In this document: piece after piece, positions 30,471 to 43,232 of the stretch
How the letters are laid out: each line of letters starts with the position of its first letter
How positions within the stretch are numbered: the first letter of the stretch is position 1
Assembly (NCBI GenBank): GCA_016934335.1
Contig: JAFGTC010000051.1
Span: 1 to 64,000 of the forward strand
From: Candidatus Omnitrophota bacterium
GTDB lineage: Bacteria > Hinthialibacterota > Hinthialibacteria > Hinthialibacterales > Hinthialibacteraceae
Reading direction: 5' to 3'
DNA: 64,000 nt
Translations under genes and position numbers: made by a program
The notes under the pieces: generated by a model
The model's input: the letters and a program-made list of their open reading frames with translations, nothing else
The model's database searches: none
What the model was told of the DNA's origin: nothing

Positions 30471-32276
30471 TTAATCCTGTTTTTGAATCTGAAGTTGTTG
30501 ATCCAGTTGATCGGCCAGATCGTTTAATTCTTGAATACGTTGGGGATCGGCGGATTCGCCCAGGTAGTCGATCAGGTCGCGATAATGGCCGGGATAGACG
30601 GGATTGATCTCGATAATGCGTTCCAATTCGCGAATGGCGGCTTCTCGGTTTCCCTGCCGCCGGTAAATCTCCGCCAGCCATTTATGAGATTGGATGTCTT
30701 CCTGAAGCCGTATGGCTTGTTGAAAGGACTTGATCGCCTCTTGATTCCATCCCTGCCGGGCATAGTTTATGCCAAGCAGAAAATGCGTTTGATGCGACCA
30801 TGGATCAAGCGTCCGAGAGCGATCCAAATGATAAATGGCTTCCATCCCAACGCTTTCGAATCCCTGACGAAGATGCTGATTGCCTCGATATTGCAATAGC
30901 GCATGAAAACACAAGGCTATCGCCAGAATCGTCCCGAAGACTTTAAGCAGAATGGAGGAAGAGCCGGATTCGCCGCCCTCATCGCTGCATCTTGAGGATG
31001 CCGTCAAATAAGATCCAAGAGCGACGACCAGCAGCGTACTGGCCGGCAGGTGAAAAGGAAAACTCGAGAACGAGTGAATGACCGCCGTCCATACTCCCGC
31101 GTACGCCGCCCATGCAAACCAGGGGTGCTCCGGGCGTCGCAGCCTCCGGCTTGCCGCCCGGATCCAGGCCGCCGCCAGCCACCCTAGCGCTAAGACGCCC
31201 AGGGGGCCGCATTCCGCCGCAGTTTCCAGCCATTGAAAATGCGGCTGATCGACGGCCACCACGTAATCGCGGTCATGGGCGCGCCACTGTTGTTTATAAT
31301 TGATCCCCTGGTAATATTCATGAACCGTGAGGTAGTTGCCGAATCCTATGCCGGTTAATGGATTTTCGTTGATCATGATTCGCGTGGTCCGCCAATTGAA
31401 GCGGCGCGCCCCCATGCCCGACCACCAGTGCGACGATTCCCAGGCCTGCCTGTATAAAGAACGCCCGTGGCTGTTGTAGGGATTTTCCAGCATGTACCAG
31501 CCTATCGCAAACGCGATGATCCCCCCCAGCGCCAGCAGGCGCATCCAAGGAAGGCGAATCCCCCCGAACAAGGCGAATGCGGTGATGAGAGTAATCGTCA
31601 ATGCGACGATCTGGCCGGTGACGGCCCCGACGCAAAAAGTGACGGTTTGGCAGGCGGCGATAAGCAGGACGGCGGCGCCGGCCGCCGCAAATTCAATGAG
31701 GCTGCATTTTTTTCGAAGCCCCAATCCAATGGCGACCGGAAGAAGGATGGCGAGATAGCCGGCGAGAAAGTTGGGATTGCCCAGCGTTGAAATCACTTTG
31801 GCGCGCCAGTCGCGCACGCCTCCGCTCGAAGCCGCAAAATCGACGCCGTAATCCTGGAGGAGGCCGTAAAGCGCAATCAGGCAGGCGGCCGGCAGAAGAA
31901 TTCTCGCCGCCTGAACCGGCGATCCTCCCAGGCGCCAGAAGCGCAGGAAGCCGTAATAGAGGCTGATAAACATCGCCAGATTCAACAGCGCGCGAATTTG
32001 GATCGGCGTACGGTAATGAAGAACGGTTGACGCCAGCGATATCAGAAACAGCGCCAGCAGCGGCTTGCTTAGAGCCGATTGAACCAGGGCGCTTCTCCAA
32101 GGCTGATAACTGATCAGCATAATCCAAAGCGCGGCGCATAACATCAGCCAAACGGTTTTGGGAAGCAGATACGAGTCATACGTACTGATGCTGATGACCA
32201 GCGGCGTAAAGGCCAGGATGATGTAGGCCAGTAATTTCTCCCATTTTTGCAAAGAAATCGGTTCGGCTGCGTTCAT
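30471..32276 (-). CDS. O-antigen ligase/polymerase-like protein with C-terminal TPR domain
   Basis: The 601-aa protein has about 11 membrane helices with the Wzy/WaaL layout, including a large periplasmic loop containing the typical ENPLTGIGFGNYL motif and an Asp-rich HDRDYVVAVDQPHF segment, followed by tetratricopeptide repeats (about residues 480-590, with YARQGWNQEAIKSFQQAIRL and YRRQGNREAAIRELERII). Such proteins polymerise or attach glycan chains on the periplasmic face. Its start overlaps the stop of the upstream DUF2723 gene by 4 bp, so the two are coupled. The exact activity (ligase or polymerase) cannot be told. Confidence 0.82.
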   Translation of the reverse strand: MNAAEPISLQKWEKLLAYIILAFTPLVISISTYDSYLLPKTVWLMLCAALWIMLISYQPWRSALVQSALSKPLLALFLISLASTVLHYRTPIQIRALLNLAMFISLYYGFLRFWRLGGSPVQAARILLPAACLIALYGLLQDYGVDFAASSGGVRDWRAKVISTLGNPNFLAGYLAILLPVAIGLGLRKKCSLIEFAAAGAAVLLIAACQTVTFCVGAVTGQIVALTITLITAFALFGGIRLPWMRLLALGGIIAFAIGWYMLENPYNSHGRSLYRQAWESSHWWSGMGARRFNWRTTRIMINENPLTGIGFGNYLTVHEYYQGINYKQQWRAHDRDYVVAVDQPHFQWLETAAECGPLGVLALGWLAAAWIRAASRRLRRPEHPWFAWAAYAGVWTAVIHSFSSFPFHLPASTLLVVALGSYLTASSRCSDEGGESGSSSILLKVFGTILAIALCFHALLQYRGNQHLRQGFESVGMEAIYHLDRSRTLDPWSHQTHFLLGINYARQGWNQEAIKSFQQAIRLQEDIQSHKWLAEIYRRQGNREAAIRELERIIEINPVYPGHYRDLIDYLGESADPQRIQELNDLADQLDQQLQIQKQD

Positions 32277-34081
32277 GGCATGTTCTCGGTGGAATCGCTT
32301 TTTCTTTCTAATTTGTAAATATGGCCGCCGGGGATATAGGGATCATAAAATGTGGATATTTGCGCCCGGTCAATGGGAATCAATCCCAAATACTGAAACT
32401 TCGATTCTTCCATCCATGACCGGGGCGGGGGATTGACGAGCGAAAACGAGGTGATGTAAATCGGCCCTCTGGCCAGTAGAGGATCGATGAGTTCGCTCCG
32501 GATGCTTTGCAGCCAGAGGTCGCGGGATGCAAAGAGTTGGCCATGCTTCGGCGGAATGGCGATCGACAGCCTCCGGCTGATTTTCTCGCTGTACCAGTCC
32601 AGGCGAAGAAAGCCGGCGCCTACTAGGATTGTGTGGGGATGGCGGTTTTCGACGATTTGCTGATAGAGCAATGGATACAATTCATTGTCGGCGGTTTCGT
32701 ATGTCAACCCCGTAATCAATGGAGCGCCGTCCGGGATTTTGCGCCAAACGCCGGCGCCGTAGGCGGCCGCCGATCGATCCGTCATGCCCCCGAAGCGTTC
32801 CGGCAAGGCGCCGTTGCCTATGGCGTAATTCGACAAGGCGAAAGGACGCTCCAACAAGCCCTCCTTCCCGTCGAATCGCACCCATAAGGGAAGCAGGGAG
32901 GCCGTTAGAAAAAATAGAGCGGTTAGGCGAACGATCGATCTTTTGATGCCTTGGCTGCCGAAATCAGACAAAATACCCGCTATGCCGAACGCCAGGGGAA
33001 TCGTCAAAATGATCAGGGAAGGCAATAGAAAAACCTGCCAATCGCCTACGCGGTACAAAAAGACGAATCCTTGATAAACCGCCAGGCAAAGAATCGTGAA
33101 AACGGCCAGCCAATTCGCTTTTTTCCACAGAACCCAAAATCCCCATAGAAGAGGCAGAATCAGGATGCTGTAACATAAAAAAGGAAGCAGGAGCAGTTGC
33201 AAAAATCCTGTGAGAATGGAATAGAGATCCGATTGAAGAAGATCTTGCATGCTCTGCGCGATGATTCCTGCATACAATTCTCCGCTGATGAGCTGATACA
33301 GGCGCGCCGCATTGTCGGGATTATACCAGTTAATGGCGGGATCCTGCGATGCGCGCCAAGGGAAGTAAGCCAGGCACAAAAGAGGCATCAAAAAACAAAT
33401 CAGCGATCGCTGAATGGTTTTTGACCAGTTCCCGGATTCAATCGTCTGAATCCCGAACCAGTGCGAGGTCCGCCGGGAAATGCGCAGGAAAAAAAACAAA
33501 GCGATCAGGACTATAATGAAGATCGATAAGCGATGATGAACGAGCATGGCGCCGGCGAGAAATGCCAGCAGGGGTGTTGCGCGTTTGGGATTCTGCATCG
33601 CATAGCCGAAAAACCATAACGCCAGCGCGAATTGCAGCGCGAAAAGCGCATAGACTTCGGCGATCCGGCTTTGAGAGGCGGTCAGAGGAGTCAATGACCA
33701 AGCCAGCGCCGCCGCAAAGGCGGGCAGGGATGTCAACAAAGGTCTCTCTCCGAAAACCGTCTCCAATATCCGTCGAAGAAAACTCCACAACACCCATGCG
33801 GCCAGTGCGGAACAAACAGCGGAAAATAAATGCGCGCGAAATATAATCGTTCCGGCGGGCAGCGCTTGAAAGATTCGCAAAGCTAGCATATACAGGGGGT
33901 AGCCGGTGGGGTGAGGAACGCCCAGAATCCAGGCGCTGGCCGCCAATTCGGGTGAATCGCCCCATACCAAATCCTGGGGAAGCGTGAAAATGTACGCCGA
34001 TAAAGACAACAAACAAACCGCTGCACCGGCCCATCGGCTGAAAAGGCTGCTTGAGCGGGATTCTGTTTTTTTTGTCTGCAT
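32273..34081 (-). CDS. DUF2723 / TMEM260-like polytopic membrane protein
   Basis: DUF2723 proteins are polytopic GT-C-like membrane proteins; the human homologue TMEM260 is an O-mannosyltransferase. This 602-aa protein has the family signature directly after the first helix: WGDSPELAASAWILGVPHPT then GYPLYML. About a dozen membrane segments follow, then a periplasmic C-terminal domain. ATG 34081 is used because the first helix then starts near residue 17; ATG 34117 would add 12 residues. Either start overlaps the divergent membrane-protein gene if that gene begins at 33990. Glycan transfer to protein or lipid is the most likely role. Confidence 0.8.
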   Translation of the reverse strand: MQTKKTESRSSSLFSRWAGAAVCLLSLSAYIFTLPQDLVWGDSPELAASAWILGVPHPTGYPLYMLALRIFQALPAGTIIFRAHLFSAVCSALAAWVLWSFLRRILETVFGERPLLTSLPAFAAALAWSLTPLTASQSRIAEVYALFALQFALALWFFGYAMQNPKRATPLLAFLAGAMLVHHRLSIFIIVLIALFFFLRISRRTSHWFGIQTIESGNWSKTIQRSLICFLMPLLCLAYFPWRASQDPAINWYNPDNAARLYQLISGELYAGIIAQSMQDLLQSDLYSILTGFLQLLLLPFLCYSILILPLLWGFWVLWKKANWLAVFTILCLAVYQGFVFLYRVGDWQVFLLPSLIILTIPLAFGIAGILSDFGSQGIKRSIVRLTALFFLTASLLPLWVRFDGKEGLLERPFALSNYAIGNGALPERFGGMTDRSAAAYGAGVWRKIPDGAPLITGLTYETADNELYPLLYQQIVENRHPHTILVGAGFLRLDWYSEKISRRLSIAIPPKHGQLFASRDLWLQSIRSELIDPLLARGPIYITSFSLVNPPPRSWMEESKFQYLGLIPIDRAQISTFYDPYIPGGHIYKLERKSDSTENMP

Positions 34082-35729
34082 TTTTACTTTACTCGCCCTG
34101 GCGGCCTGCTGGCCCATCCTTTTTCATCCCGCTCGGCATCTCTCCGTCATGCCGACCGCCGATAAGGGGGCCAATTTATGGAATCTCTGGTGGGTTTATT
34201 ATGCTCTATTTGAACGCGGTATATCACCCCTGCGTTGCGATATGATCTTCATCCCCTGGGGGTGCGATCTACGATGCCATACTCTCTCCATCGCCAACGG
34301 CTTGATAGCCTCTCCCGTCACCGGGCGGCTGGGCCCGTCGATCGCCTATAATCTGCTGTTTCTTGTTTGGACTCTTTTGACCGGATGCTTTGCGGCGATG
34401 TGGGCGCAGCGATTCGGCGCCAGCCGCTGGACCGCCGTAATGGCGGGCGTGATCGCCGCCTTCGGCCCCTATCGGTGGGGGCATCAGAATCACTTGAATC
34501 TATTTTCAACTCCCTGGCTTTTCCTGGCCTTTTACTTTTGCGAACGCAGCGTGGAATCGAAAAACATTCGCTATGCCGCCGCTATTGCTTTGGCATGGAT
34601 CCTGGCCCTTTTTACCGATTGGTATTATGGATTATTTGTAGGATTTTATCTGACCATTCGGGCGTGCCTGCTTATCCTTACTCACAGAAGCGCCGGCAGC
34701 GTCTCCTGGGCGCTGAAATTTTGGATTGCTCCGGCCATTGTGGTTTATCTGGCCGTCTTTTCCTATTTTTTCGGCGCCCCGGCTTTGGAGAACTACGTCG
34801 ATTCGGTTCCTATGAAATTTTCCGCTTTTTGGTCGATGGATCTCATGCATTTTGTGCTGCCTTTATGGCTTCTGCCTCACTTTCCTCTTTTGCAGCAAAA
34901 CGAGGAATTCGGATTCCATCCCGGATTCGTTTGGATGCTGCTGCCTCTCGTTTTTTATCGATTCGCAGGAGGATCGCAGAAAGGGCGTGCAAATCGCACG
35001 TTTCTTCTGACGACGGCAGGCGTTTTCTTCTTATTCTCATTGGGCCCTGTCCTGATGTGGAACGCTCATCCCGTCCGAATTTTTTACGGCATCCCGGTTT
35101 TTCTGCCGGCGAGCGTTTTTGAGTTGATCCCCGGATTGACCGTGATTCGCGTCTACGCTCGATTCGCTTACATCGGTTTTACCGCCTGCCTTCTGCTGGG
35201 ATTGTTGGGTTTGCAAAACTGGATGCTTGTTCGGGGATGGCGGCGAAGAACCGGCATGGTTTATTTGATTTTGGCGGGATTTTTTTTCTTGGAAACCGGC
35301 TGGCGCTTTCCCCGGATGGTCGATTATCCATCCCCCCCTCTGTTTTTTTCTGAATCCCCCAAGCCGGTTTTGGAACTGCCGTTTGAACCCTCCATTTACG
35401 GCGGCTTGCATCTGTACCACCAGACTTTGCATAAACAGCCGATTTTCGTCGCCGAATTTTCACGCTTGGGGAAATATCGCCAAAAATATTTGGAAGATTT
35501 CCCCGCTTTGCCTCTTTTGAATCGGGCCGCCTGCGGGGAAAATCTCCCGGCGGATCCCGAATTTGATCGCGAATTCTTCTGCCGCGAATTGCATCGACTG
35601 GGACAGGCGCATATTATTTTGGGGGCCTTGGAATCGGGGGAATCCAACTCGGAGGCCTTGCGGGATTCTCTCCAGAATGTCCTTCGCCTTTGTCAGAAGG
35701 ACGGCGCATTGAATCCGTTAGAAAATTAA
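33990..35729 (+). CDS. Polytopic membrane protein, GT-C-like, unknown
   Basis: I do not recognise a named family. The 579-aa protein has a first helix (about 26-45, VFFVCIFTLLALAACWPILF), a long first loop with PTADKGANLWNLWWVYYALF and PWGCDLR, about ten more helices and a soluble C-terminal domain of about 130 residues. This resembles bacterial GT-C-type sugar transferases. ATG 33990 has GGGGAAG about 10 nt upstream. It lies inside the 5' coding part of the divergent DUF2723 gene. The next in-frame ATG, at 34149, avoids the overlap but would delete the first helix. It ends the surface-glycan-like block. Confidence 0.7.
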   Translation: MYADKDNKQTAAPAHRLKRLLERDSVFFVCIFTLLALAACWPILFHPARHLSVMPTADKGANLWNLWWVYYALFERGISPLRCDMIFIPWGCDLRCHTLSIANGLIASPVTGRLGPSIAYNLLFLVWTLLTGCFAAMWAQRFGASRWTAVMAGVIAAFGPYRWGHQNHLNLFSTPWLFLAFYFCERSVESKNIRYAAAIALAWILALFTDWYYGLFVGFYLTIRACLLILTHRSAGSVSWALKFWIAPAIVVYLAVFSYFFGAPALENYVDSVPMKFSAFWSMDLMHFVLPLWLLPHFPLLQQNEEFGFHPGFVWMLLPLVFYRFAGGSQKGRANRTFLLTTAGVFFLFSLGPVLMWNAHPVRIFYGIPVFLPASVFELIPGLTVIRVYARFAYIGFTACLLLGLLGLQNWMLVRGWRRRTGMVYLILAGFFFLETGWRFPRMVDYPSPPLFFSESPKPVLELPFEPSIYGGLHLYHQTLHKQPIFVAEFSRLGKYRQKYLEDFPALPLLNRAACGENLPADPEFDREFFCRELHRLGQAHIILGALESGESNSEALRDSLQNVLRLCQKDGALNPLEN

Positions 35730-36124: not shown

Positions 36125-38116
36125 TTGTTTAATAGAACAGTCTTATTCTATGGTTTATTGCTAGTTATAATCATTTTGGTTGTCAGTTCGATCCAAACTG
36201 AACAGACCGAAAAACTTGCGTACGATGATTTTGATGGAATCTTGAACGGCGAAGTTCAAGATATGCAGCTGCTCAAGGCTGTTGTTTCGGCCAGCAAAGT
36301 CAAAGGCTCGTATCGGAAAACCAGCGAACCCAACCGTGAATATCCCTACGAAGTAACTTTGGCCACCGACGGGCAAGTTCCCGATATCTTGAAGGCCTGC
36401 CGGGAGTATAAAAAGCAATATCCCTCCTTCGAGTATGAAAATGAAGCGGACAGCAACTGGATGTTCAGCATTATGACCAGTCTGCTGCCGATTCTGCTGT
36501 TGATCGGCGTTTGGTTCTTTATTCTTAAACAGATGCAAATCGGCGGCAGCAAAGCCATGTCCTTTGGCAAAAGCCGCGCCCGCTTGAATAATGAGGGACA
36601 GCCGAAAGTCACCTTCAACGACGTAGCCGGCTGCGATGAAGCTAAAGAGGAATTGAAGGAAATCGTTGAATTTTTAAAAGATCCCAAACGATTCCAGAAA
36701 CTGGGCGGAAAAATACCGCACGGCGTTCTCCTGCACGGCCCTCCGGGAACAGGAAAAACTTTGTTGGCTCGAGCCGTGGCCGGAGAAGCGAACGTGCCGT
36801 TCTTCAGCATCAGCGGTTCGGATTTTGTCGAGATGTTCGTCGGCGTCGGCGCCTCTCGAGTCCGCGATTTGTTTGAGCAGGGCAAAAAACATGCGCCTTG
36901 CATTATTTTTATGGACGAAATCGACGCCGTAGGACGCCAGCGCTTCGCCGGCGTGGGCGGCGGCCACGATGAACGCGAACAAACCCTCAACCAACTGCTG
37001 GTCGAAATGGACGGCTTCAACACCAACGAAGAAGTCATCTTGATTGCGGCCACCAACCGCCCCGATGTGCTGGATCCCGCCTTGCTGCGACCCGGCCGAT
37101 TTGATCGCCAGATTATCATCGACTTGCCCGACCTGAACGGCCGAAAGGGCATTGTTGAAGTTCATACTAAAAACGTGGTCGTGTCGAAAGACGTCGATTA
37201 TAACGTTCTTGCTCGGCGTACGCCGGGATTCTCCGGCGCGGATCTTTATAACACCGTCAACGAGGCGGCCTTGTTAGCGGCCAGAAAAGTCAAAGACTGC
37301 GTTCAAATGGAAGACTTCGAAGAGGCGATCGAACGCGTCACCGCCGGTCCGGAGCGAAAAAGCCGCGCTATAACCGACAAAGAAAAGAAAATTGTGGCCT
37401 ATCACGAAGCCGGTCACGCCGTCGTCGGATTGTTCCTGGCCGACATCGACCCAGTACACAAGGTCTCCATTCTGCCGCGCGGCCGCGCCCTGGGCTATAC
37501 CATGCACCTGCCCGTAGAGGATCGCTACCTGACCACCAAAAAAGAACTGCTTTCTCGAATGACGACTCTGCTGGGCGGCCGGGTCGCGGAAGATATTATT
37601 TTTCACGATGTAACCACCGGCGCCCAAAACGATTTAGAACGAGTCACCGATATTTCCCATAAAATGGTATGCAATTTCGGCATGAGCGAGAAATTAGGAC
37701 CGCTCACTTTTGGTTTAAACGAAAACCAAATCTTCTTAGGCCGCGACTTTTATAAAGATCGCGAGTACAGCGAGGAAATTCAATTCGAAATCGACAAAGA
37801 AGTTCGCCAAATTGTGGATGAATGTTACCACAAAGCTAAGCGTATTCTCGAAGAAAACAGGGATATCCTCGATAGCCTGGCGAATGCGCTTCTCGAACGC
37901 GAAGTTCTCTTGGCCGAAGAAGTGAAAAAGCTGGTTGACGAAACCGAGGCGAAGCGTTCCGGCCAATCGGAAGCCAACGGCGGTGAAGATCTCAAGTCGG
38001 ACGATCGGCTGGAAACGAACTCGAAAGACGAGCCGGTGGAAAACGCTTCTCAATCCGACGATGATTCGGCTTCTGAATCGGACGGCGCCGAGCGGCCGGT
38101 TGAAGAGGTGCTCTAA
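36125..38116 (+). CDS. ftsH: ATP-dependent zinc metalloprotease FtsH
   Basis: FtsH is a membrane-anchored hexameric AAA+ protease that degrades misfolded membrane proteins and regulators. The 663-aa protein has a first helix (about 5-22), a periplasmic domain, a second helix near 115-135, Walker A GPPGTGKT near 205, Walker B IIFMDEID, second region of homology [20 protein letters not shown], and the zinc motif HEAGH near 427. A poly-acidic C-terminal tail follows. The start is TTG at 36125, with AGGGGA 9 nt upstream. An ATG at 36114 opens only a five-codon frame that overlaps the start. A weak hairpin follows the stop. Confidence 0.97.
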
Positions 38117-38300: not shown

Positions 38301-39161
38301 ATGACGTCCCTTTGGCGCTGCCGCGATAGATCCTTTAAATGGGGCGATCGCACCCTGATCATGGGCATCGTCAATGTGACCCCGGATTCTTTCAGCGATG
38401 GCGGCCTTTTTTACGATAAAGGAAAAGCCATCGAACACGCTTATCGCTTAATCGCCGATGGCGCCGATATAATCGATGCGGGAGGCGCGTCCACACGCCC
38501 GGGAGCGGATCCCGTTCCGGAAGAAGTAGAACTCCAGCGAGTTCTGACGGTCGTGCAGGAAATTGCCGGCGTCGGCGGTTACCCGGTTTCCATTGATACG
38601 TTTTCTTACGAGGTCGCCGCTCGCTGTCTGGAAGCGGGCGCTTGCGTGATCAATGACGTCACCGGCCTCCAGAACGATTTACGATTGGCGAATCTCGCGG
38701 CGGAAAGCGGCGCAGGCCTGATCTTGATGCACATGCGGGGAACGCCCCGAACCATGCAATCCATGACCGACTACGAAAATTTGACGGAAGAAATTCGTTC
38801 CTTTTTCGCCCGGCAAGTAAAAGCGGCCAGGCAAATCGGCGTTTCAGACGATCAAATCGTTCTCGACCCGGGCATCGGATTTAGCAAAACAGCTGATCAG
38901 AATCTTGAAATCATTCAGAATCTCGATAAAGTGCGCTTCGATCATTTCCCTCTGCTGCTCGGGCCGTCCCGGAAATCCTTTATCGGAAAAATTACCGGCG
39001 CCGAGCCTCCCCACCGGCTTTATGGCACGATCGGCGCGGCGGCGGTCGGCATTATGAACGGCGCGGATATCGTACGAGTTCATGACGTGAAAGAAAACCG
39101 GGAAGCGGCTCTGGTTGTGGACTCGATCAAGCGGGGCATCGTGATCAACGCAGGAGGCTAA
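38301..39161 (+). CDS. folP: Dihydropteroate synthase
   Basis: FolP joins para-aminobenzoate to dihydropterin pyrophosphate in folate synthesis. The 286-aa protein has all signature stretches: IMGIVNVTPDSFSDGG near residue 15, DIIDAGGASTRPGA, VSIDTFSYEVA, INDVTGL, LMHMRGTP, VLDPGIGFSKT and LLLGPSRKSF. ATG 38301 is used because GGGAGG lies 6 nt upstream and the product then has normal length; a longer frame from 38187 is unsupported. Its last codons contain the AGGAGG that serves the following cdaA gene, so the two are closely coupled. Confidence 0.96.
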   Translation: MTSLWRCRDRSFKWGDRTLIMGIVNVTPDSFSDGGLFYDKGKAIEHAYRLIADGADIIDAGGASTRPGADPVPEEVELQRVLTVVQEIAGVGGYPVSIDTFSYEVAARCLEAGACVINDVTGLQNDLRLANLAAESGAGLILMHMRGTPRTMQSMTDYENLTEEIRSFFARQVKAARQIGVSDDQIVLDPGIGFSKTADQNLEIIQNLDKVRFDHFPLLLGPSRKSFIGKITGAEPPHRLYGTIGAAAVGIMNGADIVRVHDVKENREAALVVDSIKRGIVINAGG

Positions 39162-39163
39162 TC

Positions 39164-39940
39164 ATTTCTTCAGCCATTTGGATCAAGATTTTTGGACAAA
39201 GCGCGGGATACGCCATCGCGGAAATCGTCATCCTGTGGATTTTGTTCTATCTCATTCTGCGGGCGGTGCGGGGAACGCGCGCCGTTCAAATGGTCCAATT
39301 CCTGTTTCTTCTCATTATTCTGACTTATATCTGCAAAATATTAAATTTTCGAACCGTCTACTGGGTGCTGACCTCCCTGCAGGCGCCCATTTTTATCGCT
39401 TTGGTGATTTTATATGCGCCGGAGCTGCGCCGAGTCGTGAACGACTTAACCCAACTGCGTTTTTTTCGCAAATCCAAAGGCGCCATCGATCCTGTGATCA
39501 CCCAAGTCGTCAACGCCGCCAAGATTCTTTCGCGCCGTCATGTCGGCGCGCTGGTCGTCTTCGAAAAATCGGTCAGTTTGCAAAGCTTCATCGATACGGG
39601 CATTCCTGTGAATAGCGAGGTTTCTTCCGAATTGCTGGTTTCCATTTTTTCCCCTTTGACGCCTTTGCATGACGGGGCGGTGATTATACGGGAAAACCGG
39701 CTTGCCGCGGCCGCCTGCCTCCTCCCCTTGAGCGAACGGGAAGAGATCGATTCCAATTATGGAACTCGGCATCGCGCCGCTCTTGGTTTGGTCGAAGAAA
39801 CCGACGCCGTCATCGTGATTGTCTCCGAAGAAACCGGCGCCATGTCTTTAGCGATCGATGGAAGAATCACCCGGAACATTAATCCCGAAAATTACGAATC
39901 CATTCTCTGGCATGTCGTTCGGAAAGGAGGGCGGACATGA
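39164..39940 (+). CDS. cdaA: Diadenylate cyclase CdaA, apparent ATT start
   Basis: CdaA makes cyclic di-AMP from two ATP at the inner membrane. The frame has the membrane helices of CdaA (YAIAEIVILWILFYLILRAV, VQFLFLLIILTYICK, LQAPIFIALVILYAPELRR) and the DAC domain with LHDGAVII (DGA motif) and GTRHRAALGL (RHR motif), all intact. The first in-frame ATG/GTG/TTG is a TTG at 39242 that would cut the first helix and has no ribosome-binding site. In contrast, ATT at 39164 follows a perfect AGGAGG by 6 nt, directly after the folP stop, and restores a full N-terminus (258 aa). I therefore infer an AUU start. The stop overlaps cdaR by 4 bp. Confidence 0.85.
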   Translation: MSSAIWIKIFGQSAGYAIAEIVILWILFYLILRAVRGTRAVQMVQFLFLLIILTYICKILNFRTVYWVLTSLQAPIFIALVILYAPELRRVVNDLTQLRFFRKSKGAIDPVITQVVNAAKILSRRHVGALVVFEKSVSLQSFIDTGIPVNSEVSSELLVSIFSPLTPLHDGAVIIRENRLAAAACLLPLSEREEIDSNYGTRHRAALGLVEETDAVIVIVSEETGAMSLAIDGRITRNINPENYESILWHVVRKGGRT

Positions 39941-40707
39941 CTCGCTGGGGATCCAATGGCGGTTTGCTGTTCCTATCATTTCTGATGGCCGTCGGGATTG
40001 TTTGGATCAAAGGGCAGGAGCGCATCGACAGCCGCACCGTCGGCGGCGTTCCGGTCAGCGTGGAAAATCTTCCCGCCAATTTAGTCCTGCCCGAACGATG
40101 GAGTACGCCGGAAGCCACTGTTACGCTCCAAGGGCCTCGAAATGTTCTGGAAATGATTCGCGCCGTCCAATGCGGTTTCTTCATTCCTTTCTCGGATCAA
40201 ATCCTTCCGGAAGGGGATGAGCCCCGCAACATGATCCTCAATGCTTCGATGTTTCGCACCAGTATGACGAATGACGACAATCAGGTTCCCATTTCGGTCG
40301 TGGAAACTAGCATTCACCCGCGCCAGGCGTCCATTCATCTGCTGCCCTGGGATATCACGCAGGAACAGCCGGAGTATAAAGATTTGCTAAGTCCGGACGT
40401 AATCACCATCCCCATTTACCGGGTTCAAAAAGAAGTCTCTGTGATCGCCCCCGTGACCGGCTCGCCGCCGAATGGTTTGAAATTTCGCGATGTTGTAATT
40501 GATCCCCCGAAAATTCTGATTACCGGGCCGAAAGATGCAGTGGCCCGAATCAACTCGGTGTCGACCGACATCTTTGATTTAAATTATGTTTTGCCGCAAA
40601 CCCCTCCCCAATATATGGCTCTGCCTGATTTAACCAAGGATTTTTCCGTGTGGCCGGTTGAGAAAAATATTCGCGGTGTTACAGTAACCATAAGACTTGC
40701 GAAATAA
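39937..40707 (+). CDS. cdaR: YbbR-domain protein, CdaR-like partner of CdaA
   Basis: In many bacteria a YbbR-domain membrane protein sits directly after CdaA and modulates c-di-AMP synthesis. This 256-aa protein has an N-terminal helix (LLFLSFLMAVGIVWI) and periplasmic repeats ending in YbbR-like DPPKILITGPKDAVARI (third-domain motif). Earlier parts, including TVGGVPVSVENLP and STPEATVTLQGPRNVLEMI, fit the first YbbR domain. Its ATG overlaps the cdaA stop (ATGA), supporting a common complex. The usual third gene, glmM, is absent; pdxJ follows instead, 11 bp downstream. Confidence 0.82.
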   Translation: MTRWGSNGGLLFLSFLMAVGIVWIKGQERIDSRTVGGVPVSVENLPANLVLPERWSTPEATVTLQGPRNVLEMIRAVQCGFFIPFSDQILPEGDEPRNMILNASMFRTSMTNDDNQVPISVVETSIHPRQASIHLLPWDITQEQPEYKDLLSPDVITIPIYRVQKEVSVIAPVTGSPPNGLKFRDVVIDPPKILITGPKDAVARINSVSTDIFDLNYVLPQTPPQYMALPDLTKDFSVWPVEKNIRGVTVTIRLAK

Positions 40708-42489: not shown

Positions 42490-42683
42490 GTTTCATTTTA
42501 TTCATCGCCATAATATTGAACAGCCGGTTGAAATTATGGATTCATTTGCCAAAACTCGATCTTTGAAGACTAGAAATTTTGTCGCGTTTCGAGTAAGTAA
42601 TAAAGAAGATGTTCATAAAGAATGGAAAGACGGATCGTCGATCCTTTGTTTTTGAGGATTCATCGATTTTTGTGGAGGGAATT

Positions 42684-43232
42684 ATGCAGCGTGGATTTAC
42701 ACTCATTGAACTTTTGATCGTCGTCGCGATTATCGGCATTTTAGCGGCGATCGCCGTGCCCAATTTTTTGAATGCGCAGGTTCGAGCCAAAGTCAGCCGC
42801 GTCTATTCGGATATGCGATCGATCGCCAGCGCGATTGAGATGTATAAGATCGACAATAACAATAAAGTTCCTTATCCCATCTTGCCGGAAGGCGGCACGG
42901 ATTGGTATATGCGCCAGGTTCGCATGACCACGCCCATCGCCTATTTGACGAGTTTACCGCTCGATCCCTTTTTTCTCCCCCAGAACAGTATGGATTCCGG
43001 CAGCCACGCCCGCAAAGGCGTCTATGACTATGTCGGGCGAGAATACGCAGGATCCGTATGGGGATTCGCAGTAGGCAGTCTGGCCCAAAACGCCGATTAT
43101 TTCATTCACAGCGCCGGCCCGGATCATGCCGGCTCTCCAACGCCGTGGACAAGCGAAAAAGTGTATGATATGTCGAATGGACTGCAAAGCGCTGGCGATA
43201 TCTTTTACATCGATTTTCATCCCGCTCAATAG
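42684..43232 (+). CDS. Type IV prepilin-like/type II pseudopilin protein
   Basis: The 182-aa product has a classical type III signal: a short leader MQRG followed by FTLIELLIVVAIIGILAAIA, with the G/F prepilin-peptidase site and Glu at position +5. The mature domain continues with helix QVRAKVSRVYSDMRSIASAI, which is GspG/pilin-like, then a C-terminal globular part with GSPTPWTSEKVYDMSNG. GGAGG 7-8 nt upstream sets the start. It could be a pilin or pseudopilin of the type II system; the nearby PilT-type ATPases are about 37 kb away. No pilin assembly genes are adjacent. Confidence 0.88.
   Translation: MQRGFTLIELLIVVAIIGILAAIAVPNFLNAQVRAKVSRVYSDMRSIASAIEMYKIDNNNKVPYPILPEGGTDWYMRQVRMTTPIAYLTSLPLDPFFLPQNSMDSGSHARKGVYDYVGREYAGSVWGFAVGSLAQNADYFIHSAGPDHAGSPTPWTSEKVYDMSNGLQSAGDIFYIDFHPAQ

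Follow-up and report, generated by a model that had tools for sequence, protein, structure and literature searches.

The c-di-AMP synthase gene cdaA almost certainly begins at a conserved, weak AUU or AUC codon in one bacterial family, and its translation is probably throttled there

The window (the whole stretch of DNA analysed, 64,000 nucleotides) carries cdaA, the gene for a membrane diadenylate cyclase, between folP and a gene for a YbbR-domain protein (Table 1). A Shine–Dalgarno sequence (SD), AGGAGG, is followed by six bases, CTAATC, and then by an ATT codon in the cdaA frame, as an initial annotation of this DNA had reported. The same annotation placed AGGAGG directly after the folP stop. 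Its coordinates hold, but the motif lies inside the final folP codons (GCA GGA GGC TAA), ahead of the stop codon TAA at 39159–39161. The ATT is the second of two tandem in-frame AUH codons (AUH denoting an AUU or AUC start in the cdaA comparison); the first is an ATC which overlaps the folP stop as TAATC. The cdaA frame stays open over 26 codons upstream, with no ATG, GTG, TTG or CTG among them, and its first canonical start is a TTG at residue 27 of the long form. An Rfam search of the window returned nothing besides a tRNA.

Table 1. Features at the folP–cdaA junction (window coordinates)
Feature	Position	Strand	Evidence
folP (dihydropteroate synthase), upstream gene	38301–39161	+	TIGR01496, 316 bits; adjoins cdaA in 6/6 genomes of the family
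Shine–Dalgarno sequence of cdaA, AGGAGG, in last folP codons	39152–39157	+	predicted anti-SD duplex −10.3 kcal/mol; strong SD also in G001–G004
ATC overlapping folP stop, second candidate start	39161–39163	+	sequence; GGAG spacing 4 nt
ATT, most likely cdaA start codon	39164–39166	+	7 nt past GGAG; compare ATC at 8 nt in G001–G004
cdaA, membrane diadenylate cyclase, 258 aa + stop	39164–39940	+	TIGR00159, 236.5 bits; Pfam DAC
First transmembrane helix (TM1), residues 14–36	39203–39271	+	conserved in six genera; helix in low-confidence model
TTG, first canonical in-frame start, unlikely start	39242–39244	+	sits within TM1
YbbR-domain (CdaR-like) gene	39937–40707	+	Pfam PF07949, 46.6 bits; ATG overlaps cdaA stop (ATGA)

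The protein belongs to the CdaA equivalog family TIGR00159, where its 236.5 bits exceed the curated cut-off of 188.8 bits, and has the corresponding layout of N-terminal membrane helices followed by a Pfam DAC domain (residues 117–234). An AlphaFold model places the helices at residues 14–36, 40–60 and 63–96; the model is of low confidence (mean pLDDT 59.8) and was used for helix positions only.

The family, which is uncultured, was sampled with six genomes from six genera, all drafts (G000–G005), with G006–G009 as outgroups; G000 is the draft genome containing the window (5.96 Mb in 316 contigs). In the five other genera of the family cdaA encodes a protein of 63–66% identity and lies directly after folP. 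The start region reads AGGAGG-CTAATC-ATT in G000, AAGGAG-AACAGGCC-ATC in G001, GGGAG-ATAGAACC-ATC in G002, AGGAGG-AAATATC-ATC in G003 (with another ATC before, the second ATC lying at 8 nt), GAGGAG-CGAGAACC-ATC in G004 and TAAGG-TTCATTTTC-ATG, with a weak SD, in G005. An AUH codon with a strong SD is therefore present in five of the six genera, at 7–8 nt from GGAG (8 nt for the ATC of G001–G004), while the outgroup genes carry ATG. The recurrence of the arrangement in four further genera exceeds chance. Among the genomes with AUH, the codons between the start and an invariant W vary and the AUH codon is constant, and the non-canonical start is therefore either ancestral to the family or arose early in it. 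Alignment with relatives had been put forward as a check for a base error at the ATT; since other genera carry ATC at the equivalent site, a sequencing error is very unlikely and was rejected as the source of this codon.

A usable canonical start is absent from three of the six genomes (G000, G003 and G004). Of the remaining AUH genomes, G001 carries an in-frame ATG after another five codons, far from the SD and with none in range, and G002 has a TTG upstream which lacks an SD; either codon could be used. Across many phyla, a canonical start that keeps TM1 is missing from 3 of 71 cdaA genes that could be scored, scoring being dependent on an anchor motif which left ten further loci unscorable. 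All three (L001, L003 and L006, from G000, G003 and G004, respectively) are from this family. The earlier view that no canonical codon has support comparable to that of the ATT is borne out. With an AUH codon at SD distance, kept in five genera behind a strong SD, cdaA would fall into the class of genes with conserved AUH starts.

The strength of the SD appears to vary with the start codon. Pairing energies were predicted for the 15 nt upstream of the start against an assumed anti-SD, CACCUCCUUA; the 3′ end of the 16S rRNA was located in G003 only, where CCTCC is observed. The cdaA genes with AUH have predicted values of −8.3 to −10.3 kcal/mol, and those with ATG have −4.0 (G005), −3.3 (G006), −4.4 (G008) and −1.7 kcal/mol (G009), compared with a median of −6.0 kcal/mol for 444 ATG genes. 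At cdaA, then, a strong SD accompanies a weak start codon and a weak SD accompanies ATG. Over the few lineages compared, this suggests that the conserved trait is a low initiation rate and not a particular codon. The apparent trade-off is a prediction which can be checked in laboratory strains.

Several other readings of the junction have to be weighed. Initiation at the TTG, or at an equivalent internal codon, would leave CdaA without half of TM1 and make the upstream homology incidental. In its favour, TTG is an ordinary start codon, and an open frame follows from 39242. However, the frame also continues upstream of it, as had been claimed from the start, and conservation across six genera covers the residues encoded there (W..FG...A..EI.IL). 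Between the conserved W and approximately the TTG, the genomes differ by 0.33, 0.22 and 0.51 differences per site at codon positions 1, 2 and 3, a third-position bias of the kind expected of coding sequence. The TIGR00159 match begins at residue 18 (profile position 14). Because the TTG is residue 27 and TM1 spans residues 14–36, a start there would be expected to cut the helix in half; the first helix had been said to be removed altogether, and while damage to it is upheld, the low-confidence model indicates that it would not be wholly lost. A TTG start is accordingly held to be very unlikely. Together, conservation across genera, SD spacing, the missing canonical starts and the coding signal before the TTG strongly support a start at the AUU or the adjacent AUC, and in five of the six genera of the family it is almost certain that cdaA is translated from one of these weak, non-standard codons. 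Between these two codons, the AUC at 39161 could be the true start here, used by ribosomes which have just terminated folP. The TAATC overlap is reminiscent of TAATG junctions at which translation is coupled, and four relatives use AUC. Nevertheless the ATT is the better candidate because it lies 7 nt from GGAG (8 nt in the relatives), as opposed to 4 nt for the ATC, and where G003 has ATC-ATC it is the second codon that is found at the common distance. The AUC is possible, but clearly the less likely of the two. A further possibility is that CdaA is made as a FolP–CdaA fusion, either through readthrough of the folP stop or through programmed frameshifting at the SD-like AGGAGG beside it; in prfB an SD-like sequence close to the stop codon stimulates frameshifting. 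The relative frame of folP and cdaA differs between genomes, however, which excludes fusion as a conserved mechanism, and G001 and G004, where the frame is the same, have an in-frame stop between the genes. The chance that a fusion accounts for CdaA is taken to be negligible.

It might also be supposed that the lineage uses AUH codons widely, owing to an altered initiator tRNA or a lax IF3, such that cdaA is nothing special. The infC gene of the family does have a conserved AUU start, found in five genomes and with the same AGGAG...ATT layout in G001, and the same is probable for a second gene, which encodes a membrane protein. Against this, a search of the window's genome with one stem pattern found a single tRNA with an initiator-type anticodon stem, which has the anticodon CAU, and no altered (non-CAU) initiator. 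Scans for AUH starts by homology (250 shared families), by coding score (1,788 genes in 2.69 Mb of stretches from six genomes) and at 597 junctions yielded no more than one candidate in addition to cdaA and infC. AUH starts are thus rare in the family, and these partial genomes and the one tRNA stem pattern gave no sign of a lineage-wide change in start usage; general AUH usage is considered very unlikely. The infC loci (L031, L138–L141 and L144) share the conserved arrangement AGGAG...TTY-TCN-ATT, in which the AUU lies ~11 nt past GGAG, a longer distance than usual, and a variable canonical codon lies further in; the IF3 of the family has a normal family score.

The further candidate is a gene for a polytopic membrane protein, directly after a gene ending RYLDAYRxxTGKEW.... 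AAGGAG is followed 7–10 nt later by ATT in G000 (L276, C37:57622–59649, − strand), G003 (L275, C60), G004 (L272, C15:11705) and G005 (L277, C7), and G002 has ATG. No canonical start precedes TM1 in G003; in G000, G004 and G005 canonical codons lie slightly downstream. On this pattern it is probably a second AUU start in the family, with weaker support than cdaA. Many other leads from the homology scan were rejected as antisense or other-frame shadows. Conservation ahead of the gene that begins at 33984 was traced to the antisense of the gene at 32273–34117 and set aside, and gene C81:67823–68614 of G005 was dismissed as an AUH match on account of a TTG at normal distance from GGAG. Given their annotated starts, the divergent genes 32273–34117 (−) and 33984–35729 (+) overlap head to head by ~130 nt (33984–34117); the true start of the latter gene is probably further downstream, unless the overlap is genuine.

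Weak start codons are known to limit expression elsewhere. The infC and pcnB genes of E. coli have AUU starts, and their expression is limited at initiation. They resemble cdaA in their start codon, which is also that of infC in its own family. However, neither bears on a nucleotide second messenger: pcnB is the gene for poly(A) polymerase, and at infC it is IF3 that regulates its own synthesis. The sigR gene of Streptomyces starts at GTC and is repressed by IF3, an effect demonstrated both by supplying infC in excess and in infC fidelity mutants (PMC5472188). Like cdaA, sigR is a regulatory gene with a non-canonical start after a very strong SD, conserved in one lineage and missed by gene callers. 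Its partner gene rsrA overlaps it in an ATGA, much as the YbbR-domain gene overlaps cdaA. In contrast, its codon is GTC and not AUU or AUC, its product is a sigma factor and not a second-messenger synthase, and the effect of IF3, experimental for sigR, is drawn by analogy for cdaA. In Staphylococcus aureus, ccpN (AUA) and cvfC1 (AUU) have been found by ribosome profiling and reporters to possess conserved AUH starts with extended SDs; output from AUU and AUA starts is ~10% of that from AUG in poor medium, and in rich medium ccpN reaches up to 30% (PMC13009471). These genes share with cdaA a conserved AUH start and a strong or extended SD, but they are other genes from another phylum. The closest likeness in protein is to CdaA/DacA (TIGR00159) itself, with the same three N-terminal helices, DAC domain and neighbouring YbbR-domain gene. 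The difference lies in the start: apart from the three named above, every scorable cdaA gene has a canonical one which keeps TM1.

The explanation which joins these observations, and which is considered highly likely, is that cdaA starts at the AUU at 39164 (or, less likely, the AUC at 39161), and that inefficient initiation disfavoured by IF3 holds CdaA low. The strong SD, probably aided by ribosomes that have only just left folP at its stop codon, would position the ordinary fMet-tRNA (CAU) on the AUU, with which it would pair imperfectly. IF3 would discriminate against such a codon, making initiation inefficient, and weak initiation would keep CdaA, and hence c-di-AMP synthesis, low. The site in the sixth genus (G005), an ATG behind a weak SD, may be about as weak. 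Translation initiation is thus the step at which production of CdaA is probably throttled. By analogy with sigR and the S. aureus AUH genes, cdaA would be translated at a fraction of the AUG rate and should respond to IF3; translation limited by IF3 is the natural reading, in line with infC, pcnB, sigR and ccpN. Such control is plausible because infC here has a conserved AUU start and because IF3 repression is established for sigR (PMC5472188), and it is likewise plausible, on the same analogy, that c-di-AMP synthesis is sensitive to the level of IF3. A reason to throttle the synthase may be found in the behaviour of c-di-AMP, which has been termed an ‘essential poison’: too little or too much impairs growth, and its level must be tuned (PMC10243994). 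A more far-reaching and doubtful proposal is that IF3 level is a real input to c-di-AMP signalling in the family, through an initiation-fidelity regulon to which infC (AUU) and cdaA (AUU/AUC) both belong. Were this so, changes in the supply of free IF3 or of 30S subunits would alter c-di-AMP and hence osmotic and cell-wall control.

The start of cdaA is almost certainly a real, conserved non-canonical start; the phenomenon is known, and a literature search for cdaA with a non-canonical start found no such report. Bacterial non-canonical starts with experimental support are few, and standard gene callers are blind to them; calling with canonical codons only would give a cdaA lacking half of its first membrane helix. 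A weak start conserved family-wide on a c-di-AMP synthase would amount to a second-messenger throttle that has evolved at the level of translation. Two further observations concern neighbouring genes. Two genes upstream of cdaA, ftsH appears to be TTG-started at 36125, at a conserved LFN(R/K)T, and in G002 and G004 there is likewise no better start before this motif. Downstream, the gene at 42609–43232 is type IV pilin-like (FTLIELLIVVAIIGILAAIAVPNFLNAQ), and several copies of its kind occur in these genomes.
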